Shown one piece after another: positions 51,930 to 54,417 of a stretch of 64,000 nucleotides of DNA. Origin of the DNA: Bradyrhizobium sp. CCGB01 (GTDB taxonomy: Bacteria; Pseudomonadota; Alphaproteobacteria; Rhizobiales; Xanthobacteraceae); contig NZ_JANADK010000001.1 in assembly GCF_024199795.1 (NCBI RefSeq), positions 4,340,001 to 4,404,000 on the forward strand. Direction: 5' to 3'. A program made the position numbers and the translations under genes. Every line of letters begins with the position of its first letter. Position 1 is the first letter of the stretch. The notes under the pieces are model-generated. The model searched no databases. It was given only the letters and a program-made list of their open reading frames with translations, and had not been told where the DNA came from.

Positions 51930-52003
51930 TGGGGAATGGTGTAACGGTAGCACAACAGACTCTGACTCTGTTTGTCTTGGTTCGAATCCAGGTTCCCCAG
52001 CCA
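51930..52003 (+). tRNA. tRNA-Gln, anticodon CTG
   Basis: A complete 74-base cloverleaf with encoded CCA. The acceptor TGGGGAA pairs with TTCCCCA, the anticodon stem ACAGA pairs with TCTGT around loop CTCTGAC (anticodon CTG), and the T arm is CTTGG-TTCGAAT-CCAGG. The discriminator base is G. It reads glutamine CAG codons. It converges on the hydrolase-caspase gene, whose stop is 30 bases away. Confidence 0.97.
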
Positions 52004-52033: not shown

Positions 52034-53857
52034 CTAGCGGCGCTTCTTCCGGCCGGCCTTGGCGGCGCGCTTCTTCGGCGCCCGTCGCTGGCCGCGACCT
52101 GCATCCGCCGCCCCCCATGGAATTTTCGCGCCGACACGCGTCTTGGCGCCGACGAGGTTGGGCGTCTGGTTGTATTTGAGACGACGTAGTTTGGCCGTGA
52201 CGAGCTCGCTCAGCTCCTGGAACGACGGATTGGTGCCGCGCTCGCGCTGTTCGCGCAGCACCTTCGCCATGCAGAACGTGTAGGCACCATACGACGTGAC
52301 GCCGTCACGATATTCGTAGGACAGCTCCTGCTCCTGACAGGCCTCGAGGAGGATCGGCAGATAAGGGCCGTGATGCCCGAGCGCGGCCCGCGTCTTGTTG
52401 TATTCCCTGTCGGGCTGGGTGCGGAGCGCCATGCTGCGCCCGAGCCGTTGCGTGGCGCCGTTGTCGCCGAGATAGTCGGCGCCGTCCTTGCTCTTGCTCA
52501 GGCTCTCGTTCAGGGGAGGGAACTCACGCGGCACCCACATGCCTTCGCTGGCTTCCCACCGCAGCGCCCGGTGGCGGATATCGTCCGGCGGCGTCAGGCC
52601 GCGGATGCGTGGACCGCCGTCGCGCGTCATGCCGCCGGAATGGCAGCAGTCGAGCATGGCGACGAAATAGCAGTCGTATGGAAGCTGCGAGTAGAGCTGG
52701 CAGAACTGGCGATCGAGAATCGCGTGCTCTGGCGTCCAGTCGAAATCATAGGGAACCAGGCACTCGTCGACGCTGTCCGGTGCGCCGCTCGGACTGTATC
52801 TGGGAATCTGGGCGCCATGGCCCGAGTAGAACAGCATGCGCTCGTCGCCGTCGCGGACGCCCTCGAGCAGCCAGTGAAGCCTTTCCATGATGCCCTGCGC
52901 CGTCGCCCGCTCATTGAGGACGACGCGAATTTCGTCCGGCTTGAAGCCGCTTTCCTGTAGCACCGAGCTCATGAGGAATACGTCGTTGACGCATCCTTCC
53001 AGCCTGTCCGCGGGTTTGGGATAGTCGTTGATGCCGATCAGCAGGGCGCGGCGGGTCGGCCGGGTGTCGATGCGGGCAATCCCCCGCGCCGCGCTGACGA
53101 TGGAGCGTGACGCTGGCACCGGCACCACGTCGTGCCAGACGGTGGCGACGGTCTCGGGGCGCGACAGGTACCAGGTCGCATTGTGATTCAGGACATCGTT
53201 GGGGACATCGAACGGTGTCAGCACCTGCTGAAAATTATCCGCGGCGATCTCGAGCGGATAGGTGAGAACGCGATCTTCCCGATTGAAGAGATGGTACCAT
53301 TTTCGGCAGGGAAGGTCCTGAATGCGGCCTGCAAAGATGTCGCGCACCGCGGGATTACCGATCTGCGAGCCGAGCGTGACAAAGACCTTGTCCTTGATCG
53401 CAGCGGGATTGCGCACGAACGTGTCGTAGCAGATCAGCGAGCCCAGGCTGTGAGCCAGGACAACGTCGTAATTGCCGCTCTTCAGCTTGTCGAGGACCGC
53501 GCTGCGCAGCGCGGTCTGCAACTGCTCATCCACCGACCACTGGGCGACCATGCCCGAGGTCCACCTGATCAGGGTTGGTACATCGTCGAGGCTGCGTGTG
53601 CCCGCGAGCAGATCGCCGATCCCATGGACGGTCGCGCTCGCCAGCAGTTTCGCCAATGCGATGCCATAGGTGACGAGGTTGGGCGGGCTCTTGTCGAACA
53701 GGTCGTCATACGAGAGGAAGTCGATGGCCGGGTTGAGGCTCTGATCGACTGACTGAACTGCGCGTATGATGGCCTCGGACCATGACTTCCGGAACTCGGC
53801 GTCGATCTCCGCATGGCCGACGCCGTGGACGCAAAGCAACGACAGGCGGGTGCTCAT
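52034..53857 (-). CDS. Alpha/beta-hydrolase-caspase (peptidase C14) fusion protein
   Basis: A 607-residue two-domain protein. Residues 1-250 look like an alpha/beta hydrolase or lipase: LLCVHGVGH at 7-15 (oxyanion loop), nucleophile elbow LAHSLGS with Ser137, and a late W-H-D at 241-243. Residues 268-560 are a caspase-like domain: RRALLIGINDYP at 269-280, catalytic His347 in FYSGHGAQ and catalytic Cys405 in MLDCCHSGG, with acidic residues in SVDECLVPYD. The last 20 residues are extremely basic. AAGG about nine bases before the ATG at 53857 supports the start. Bacterial C14 peptidases are usually Arg/Lys-specific and occur in signalling or cell-death settings. No partner genes are adjacent, and the joint function is unknown. 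Confidence 0.88.
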   Translation of the reverse strand: MSTRLSLLCVHGVGHAEIDAEFRKSWSEAIIRAVQSVDQSLNPAIDFLSYDDLFDKSPPNLVTYGIALAKLLASATVHGIGDLLAGTRSLDDVPTLIRWTSGMVAQWSVDEQLQTALRSAVLDKLKSGNYDVVLAHSLGSLICYDTFVRNPAAIKDKVFVTLGSQIGNPAVRDIFAGRIQDLPCRKWYHLFNREDRVLTYPLEIAADNFQQVLTPFDVPNDVLNHNATWYLSRPETVATVWHDVVPVPASRSIVSAARGIARIDTRPTRRALLIGINDYPKPADRLEGCVNDVFLMSSVLQESGFKPDEIRVVLNERATAQGIMERLHWLLEGVRDGDERMLFYSGHGAQIPRYSPSGAPDSVDECLVPYDFDWTPEHAILDRQFCQLYSQLPYDCYFVAMLDCCHSGGMTRDGGPRIRGLTPPDDIRHRALRWEASEGMWVPREFPPLNESLSKSKDGADYLGDNGATQRLGRSMALRTQPDREYNKTRAALGHHGPYLPILLEACQEQELSYEYRDGVTSYGAYTFCMAKVLREQRERGTNPSFQELSELVTAKLRRLKYNQTPNLVGAKTRVGAKIPWGAADAGRGQRRAPKKRAAKAGRKKRR

Positions 53858-54054: not shown

Positions 54055-54417
54055 ATGCCCTATGTCGATGGTTTCGTGCTGGCCGTGCCGAAGGACAAGA
54101 TCGAGGCCTACAAGGCGCTGGCGCGAAAGGCCTGCGCGGTTTGGATGGAGCACGGCGCGCTCGATTACGTCGAGTGCATCGGCGACGACGTGCCCTATGG
54201 CGAGTTAACCTCGTTTCCGCGCGCAGTGATCGCGAAGGAGGACGAGGTCGTGGTGTTCGCCTGGATTGTCTACCGCGACCGGGAGACCCGCGATGCCGTC
54301 AACAAGAAGGTGATGGCCGATGAGCGGTTCAAGGGCGCCGACATGCCGTTCGACGGCAAGCGCATGATCTATGGCGGCTTCACGACGCTGCTGCGGGCGA
54401 GCGATGCCGTCGGCTGA
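54055..54417 (+). CDS. DUF1428 family protein (YbaA-like)
   Basis: A 120-residue protein that starts MPYVDGFVLAVPKDKIEAYK and contains FPRAVIAKEDEVVVFAWIVY and DGKRMIYGGF, the signature of DUF1428, a dimeric ferredoxin-like fold of unknown function. AAGGAG seven bases upstream fixes the ATG at 54055. It appears monocistronic and is followed by a large inverted repeat. Confidence 0.88.
   Translation: MPYVDGFVLAVPKDKIEAYKALARKACAVWMEHGALDYVECIGDDVPYGELTSFPRAVIAKEDEVVVFAWIVYRDRETRDAVNKKVMADERFKGADMPFDGKRMIYGGFTTLLRASDAVG

Follow-up and report, generated by a model that had tools for sequence, protein, structure and literature searches.

An alpha/beta hydrolase–metacaspase fusion of Bradyrhizobium: a predicted two-enzyme protein with recurrent peptidase neighbours

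The window examined here is a 64,000-nucleotide stretch of Bradyrhizobium sp. CCGB01 (contig NZ_JANADK010000001.1, positions 4,340,001 to 4,404,000), from a genome of 9.3 Mb in a single contig. A gene on its reverse strand encodes a 607-residue protein in which an N-terminal alpha/beta hydrolase domain is fused to a C-terminal metacaspase, confirming the original prediction that a hydrolase and a caspase-like protease share one protein. It is tentatively proposed, with less than even confidence, that this is a two-enzyme protein, predicted to combine a lipase/esterase-like hydrolase with a metacaspase cutting after Arg or Lys, which would work with partner peptidases where these are encoded and dismantle proteins and lipids. 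The proposal is based on the invariant triad and dyad, the modelled folds of both halves, S1 pocket residues assigned by homology, purifying selection, and a repeated peptidase neighbourhood. Features of the gene are listed below, with conservation given as alignment rows.

52034 to 53857, reverse strand: fusion gene, alpha/beta hydrolase–metacaspase, 607 residues; ATG at 53857, stop at 52034
53123 to 53857, reverse strand: alpha/beta hydrolase domain, residues 1-245, lipase/esterase-like
53447 to 53449, reverse strand: Ser137, nucleophile in AHSLGS; 117 of 117 near rows, 79 of 79 rows with a letter there
53273 to 53275, reverse strand: Asp195, predicted triad acid; 80 of 80 rows; follows strand 186-191 in the model
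53183 to 53185, reverse strand: His225, predicted triad histidine; 80 of 80 rows; follows strand 209-213 in the model
53057 to 53122, reverse strand: interdomain linker, residues 246-267, a possible self-cleavage region
52118 to 53056, reverse strand: metacaspase domain (p20 and p10), residues 268-580
52982 to 52984, reverse strand: Asp292, S1 pocket, mapped to TbMCA2 Asp95; 80 of 80 rows; residue role from an excerpt of PMC4357240
52817 to 52819, reverse strand: His347, catalytic dyad; 80 of 80 rows
52649 to 52651, reverse strand: Asp403, S1 pocket, mapped to TbMCA2 Asp211; 80 of 80 rows; residue role from the same excerpt
52643 to 52645, reverse strand: Cys405, catalytic dyad; 80 of 80 rows
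52037 to 52117, reverse strand: Lys/Arg-rich tail, residues 581-607, lineage-specific; model confidence (predicted local distance difference test, pLDDT) below 50 at 584-607

Two active sites in one protein

In the structural model, residues 1-245 take up an alpha/beta hydrolase fold with a nucleophile elbow and a predicted Ser-Asp-His triad, the canonical order of alpha/beta hydrolases. The model and a fold search thus bear out the N-terminal hydrolase previously claimed, and the structural search that had been named as a means of refuting it returned the fold. Fold neighbours include acyl-protein thioesterases and carboxylesterases. The DDHD phospholipase domain of Nir2 (9jyx) also resembles the N-terminal domain, at a Z score level with those of many other hydrolases, and resemblance in fold is no demonstration of function; Pfam DDHD was not matched in 22 family members at E 0.1. 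Pfam assigned no family to this domain in the window's protein, and among the 22 members matched Abhydrolase_6 in 7 (best E 2e-5) and Ser_hydrolase in 8 (best E 0.009). Profile searches of the PDB with N-domain alignments gave nothing convincing. The N-domain alone is the well-modelled structural piece, the full-length model being too weak to judge autoinhibition of the hydrolase.

A search for the N-domain in proteins of about 144-458 residues yielded 46 matches, 10 annotated as C14. Among the 45 that were new, 13 extend into the caspase half and 32 stop short; several of the latter appear truncated or frame-shifted by eye, and a few, among them P0134, P0148, and P0165, could be real single-domain N-domain proteins. 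A separate 267-residue gene with an AHSLGS elbow and no Pfam match lies downstream of the Gallionella fusion (L013:10855-11658).

The C-terminal half matched the Pfam caspase domain at 99 bits (cut-off 21.4). A p10 region follows p20, as indicated by a sequence alignment to metacaspase 9 through residue 568 and a fold match to residues 581-586, the structural model being weak at residues 405-499. His347, Cys405, and Ser137 were kept in every row with a letter at the position, in agreement with the intact active sites previously reported; homologues were checked for loss of Ser137 or Cys405 across the family, and no such loss was found. The acidic S1 pocket of TbMCA2 is formed by Cys92, Asp95, Ser156, and Asp211 (PMC4357240, excerpt). 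When these were mapped onto the fusion by the authors' own sequence alignment to known metacaspases, the corresponding residues were present in 75 (C289), 80 (D292), 72 (S345), and 80 (D403) of 80 rows. This pocket predicts cleavage after Arg or Lys, upholding at the level of sequence the basic-residue specificity on which the original prediction was premised. C14 enzymes other than caspases, as characterised so far, prefer a basic P1 residue (PMC5756287, excerpt).

Both domains are under purifying selection, each having a ratio of nonsynonymous to synonymous substitution (dN/dS) of 0.072 between the window and L005. The family is widespread: 1804 of the 8000 candidates scored in the first protein search were homologues, and 116 of the 120 homologues listed are at least 560 residues long. 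By record titles the members belong to Pseudomonadota, Planctomycetota, Verrucomicrobiota, Gemmatimonadota, Thermodesulfobacteriota, Nitrospirota, Acidobacteriota, and Myxococcota. In L035, L060, and L080, long open frames upstream were treated as spurious. No signal peptide was noticed by eye, the method used for the fusion and its neighbours, no predictor having been run.

Linker, tail, and self-processing

The metacaspase likely matures itself, by analogy with known C14 behaviour, the orthocaspase MaOC1 being described as self-processing in excerpts of PMC5756287. The original prediction went further and envisaged a two-step switch, in which cleavage of the linker and tail by the caspase half frees an autoinhibited lipase with no further partner. 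Such a switch is considered doubtful. In its favour, besides the acidic S1 pocket and the self-processing reported for an orthocaspase, the stretch 242-268 is enriched in Arg and Lys (21% vs 12% overall), carries at least one of these residues in 80 of 80 rows, and includes a segment of low model confidence (pLDDT below 50 at 256-264). No alignment column in this stretch exceeds 65% Lys/Arg, however, and a conserved cut site is thus missing. Self-cleavage in the linker is therefore weakly supported from sequence, and release of the hydrolase by linker cleavage is possible.

The tail, proposed as a second cleavage site, did not hold up as a conserved one. Although basic in 102 of 117 near rows, it is basic in 22 of 77 rows of a wider set, and 38 of these 77 extend at most five residues past position 580. 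Furthermore, its dN/dS was 0.46 between the window and L005, and 0.39-1.36 over four comparisons (the G002 row starts at residue 103), above that of both domains. Since the tail is not widely conserved and the linker has Lys or Arg in all rows, the tail appears dispensable and the linker is still a candidate cut site. The fusions of L032, L041, L043, L045, L062, and L070 end in a C-terminal motif, TPRLSG or TPRTSG.

Peptidase neighbourhoods and known caspase systems

A genome scan yielded 247 relatives, and neighbourhoods were searched in 81 loci (1.31 Mb), consisting of the best 80 of these 247, on which locus counts rest, and the window's own. A peptidase gene of one of four families adjoins the fusion in 20 of the 80 loci: a zincin in 10 (L014, L029, L030, L036, L042, L044, L047, L051, L054, and L079), a short caspase in 5, a clostripain (C11) in 4, and a C70 papain-like peptidase in 2, with two kinds in L014. 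The original prediction that no partner gene is adjacent thus stands for the window and fails for the family. Pfam confirmed the peptidase families for the members scanned, except the L054 zincin, a fragment supported by a phmmer match alone. The zincin of L030 belongs to Nitratireductor and the short caspase of L007 to B. stylosanthis. By the authors' count, allowing for misextended frames, the peptidases are no more than about 0.35 kb away from the fusion, the L014 zincin (3.5 kb) excepted; gene calling was heuristic, with antisense errors at L044 and L066. In a quick-type tree (L010, L016, L019, L071, L075, and L077 left out), the zincin loci occupy at least four distinct positions, L054 and L079 sharing one six-row group. 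The L008 short caspase is clearly homologous to GSU0716 (structure 3bij) over residues 1-277 (E 4e-105).

Flanking genes numbered 115, drawn from 124 eligible genes one place away after 11 were dropped for size or doubtfulness and two, the L066 clostripain and the L079 zincin, were added by hand. Pfam matched Astacin in 7, C14 in 5, HTH_3 in 4, M10 in 4, and C11 in 3 (Astacin 6 and C11 2 without the hand additions); the HTH_3 genes, level with M10, may be regulators. The neighbourhood queries were picked for adjacency, making their absence elsewhere a biased result, and genes four to five places away served as the control. A sample of 115 out of 151 such genes contained no peptidase family with more than a single match. 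These neighbourhoods suggest, from gene order and content, a common digestive or cell-dismantling module.

Under the two-enzyme proposal, an unspecified trigger would lead the metacaspase to cut itself in the p20-p10 loop, and possibly also in the domain linker. The mature metacaspase would then cut or activate a partner peptidase where present, while the hydrolase would attack acyl esters such as those of membrane lipids, and the joint outcome would be the dismantling of proteins and lipids, either of the cell itself or of a neighbouring one. Since the sublineage of the window's copy lacks the short caspase that accompanies the fusion in its nearest relatives, this copy would work by itself or rely on a partner gene located at another site.

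A broader and improbable extension casts the fusion as the hub of a portable lytic cassette, in which lipid, protein, and cell-wall enzymes are exchanged around a conserved two-enzyme core. Its lipid enzymes would be the fusion hydrolase and a borderline patatin-like protein of L014 (28.3 bits, cut-off 27.7); its protein enzymes the metacaspase, the GSU0716-type short caspase, and the astacin/matrixin-like, clostripain, and C70 peptidases. Wall enzymes would be Amidase_2, which adjoins the fusion in L021 and L056 and lies 4.3 kb away in L014, and, in L042 and L051, a GH46 enzyme that also has a peptidoglycan-binding domain. Metacaspase cleavage would start such a cassette, either for the programmed digestion of the cell itself or as an enzyme cocktail directed at its neighbours. 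In the Sulfuriferula multivorans locus (L014:1-20784), the fusion, the C70 papain-like peptidase, the zincin, Amidase_2, and the patatin-like protein occur in one stretch, together with proteins of 1034, 1649, and 634 residues without Pfam matches. Related genes, lipoprotein-like by eye, stand beside the fusion in bins of Verrucomicrobia and Planctomycetota (L027:8253-9662 and L055:11559-12590).

Most loci have no recurrent neighbour, consistent with a housekeeping or stress enzyme whose metacaspase serves protein turnover and whose hydrolase deacylates proteins or lipids without cell death. The acyl-protein thioesterases and carboxylesterases among the fold neighbours point the same way, as does the assignment of many non-metazoan metacaspases to homeostasis in the excerpted review (PMC5756287). 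Such a role is possible and on balance unlikely, given the patchy, accessory distribution of the gene, with no match in 250 of 265 Bradyrhizobium genomes (E 1e-60) or in 396 of the 398 genomes sampled across the phylum (E 1e-30).

A defence role, with the fusion as an anti-phage or abortive-infection effector akin to other caspase-bearing systems, is distinctly unlikely. The PADLOC 'caspase' profile matched the fusion (E 5e-19), the gene is patchy and sits at a tRNA, AAA_21 (described as putative AbiEii toxin) occurs in 2 of the 115 flanking genes, and caspase-activated effectors are known (PMC12799240, excerpt). The neighbours give no support to the defence role originally suggested, however, as no PADLOC family was found in more than two of the 115 flanking genes. 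No nuclease was present among the families matched by at least two of them (single matches were shown for the first 25 families alone). The fusion scored 41.9 bits against a cut-off of 140 for the NCBIfam EACC1-caspase model (NF047832), and the arrangement of canu, a caspase with a linked nuclease of the MBL (metallo-beta-lactamase) fold, was not found, the window neighbours being a tRNA-Gln and a DUF1428 gene. Furthermore, plasmids gave no match to the fusion at E 1e-30, and the 15 matching loci in viral contigs all start from residue 260 on, covering the caspase half alone.

Among known enzymes, plant metacaspases 4 and 9 (6w8s, 8a53) and TbMCA2 (4afr) share the p20 and p10 C14 fold, the His-Cys dyad, and the acidic S1 pocket, but unlike the fusion lack an N-terminal alpha/beta hydrolase. 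GSU0716-type short caspases, represented by 3bij, a Foldseek match of the protease half, likewise have no hydrolase domain. Orthocaspases, as described in the excerpts of PMC5756287, are without p10 and commonly carry extra domains at the C-terminus, whereas the fusion has p10 and an N-terminal hydrolase. Cyanobacterial orthocaspases with Abhydrolase (Osc7112_0662, Cri9333_0714, and Nos7107_1322; PMC7475262, excerpt) combine p20 with an alpha/beta hydrolase as the fusion does, a likeness in domain content. Excerpts of a 2012 survey (PMC3501461) report multiple metacaspases in 20 operons, other proteolysis domains in 23, a metacaspase with GDSL lipase and amidase in Chitinophaga, and metacaspase-amidase fusions. 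These place several lytic activities near a metacaspase, as here, although the hydrolase family and layout differ; the survey would probably have scored the fusion family as single-domain, Pfam missing the N-domain. No description of this proteobacterial family turned up in searches of an open-access library, which does not disprove that one exists. Bacterial caspase-like proteins are often catalogued by their caspase domain. The present family adds a second enzyme, which Pfam misses in the window's protein; both active sites are preserved across phyla, and peptidases from other families repeatedly adjoin the fusion gene. Should its parts act in sequence, the fusion would exemplify, in bacteria, the coupling of a caspase-class protease to an enzyme that attacks lipids.

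Genomic setting and distribution in Bradyrhizobium

Two features flank the fusion in the window:

51930 to 52003, forward strand: tRNA-Gln (CTG), 30 bp past the fusion-gene stop; site empty in three other Bradyrhizobium genomes
54055 to 54417, forward strand: divergent DUF1428 gene on the opposite flank (Pfam DUF1428, E 2e-44), with no known link to the fusion

In the three genomes without the fusion (L105, L106, and L107), the tRNA-Gln lies 43-183 bp from a conserved segment starting just before DUF1428, in reversed orientation in L105. In the window the distance to the same segment is 1.96 kb, with the fusion in between, and in G002 (L103) the fusion sits beyond DUF1428 instead. By this comparison of sequences, the fusion is an accessory gene at a tRNA site. 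Nine genes near it in the window, adjoining or further out, were assigned by Pfam to metabolism, transport, or unknown functions (FAD-linked oxidase, PdxA, Fe-ADH, TctC, glycosyltransferase, periplasmic binding protein, sulfatase, DUF1428, and one unmatched).

At E 1e-60 the fusion is present in 15 of the 265 Bradyrhizobium genomes. Relatives at 96-97% are Bradyrhizobium liaoningense and B. barranii. Nine copies match from residue 1 to at least residue 600 without a stop (G000, G467, G511, G632, G002, G008, G669, G614, and G663), and six are interrupted or partial (G466, G502, G639, G013, G273, and G482), some of which may be assembly errors. These six would favour a chance or decaying fusion without function; joint conservation of both domains across phyla under purifying selection makes that reading scarcely credible.

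The copies form two identity groups relative to the window's fusion, 88-100% (8 genomes) and 68-78% (7 genomes). Six genomes (G008, G013, G273, G614, G663, and G669), all fusion-bearing and all of the 68-78% group, encode a short caspase 79-90% identical to the L006 one; it is separated from the fusion match by 62-105 bp and shares its strand. The remaining member of that group, G482, has a fusion fragment alone. The chance of all six falling within the 15 of 265 is 1e-8, uncorrected for shared ancestry, which is strong here. More distant short caspases (45-59%) occur in seven further Bradyrhizobium genomes, all without the fusion, and none was found at E 1e-40 in the window's group or its own genome. 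A short caspase of 53% identity stands on the opposite side of the fusion in the Chthoniobacterales locus L076.

Other caspase-like genes of the window's genome (L002-L004) match the fusion weakly, the L002 caspase frame being absent from the output of the residue-conservation script. Judged by eye, the L003 and L004 proteins probably carry an N-terminal signal sequence. The B. barranii copy L010 is split near residue 381, and Bradyrhizobium japonicum has copies of 409 and 246 residues (P0122/P0147) that diverge from the family sequence near residues 325 and 185. Metagenome bins named as Klebsiella pneumoniae and Bordetella parapertussis (L031 and L038) cluster in the tree with environmental proteobacterial and Acidobacteria bins, and these species labels are probably wrong.
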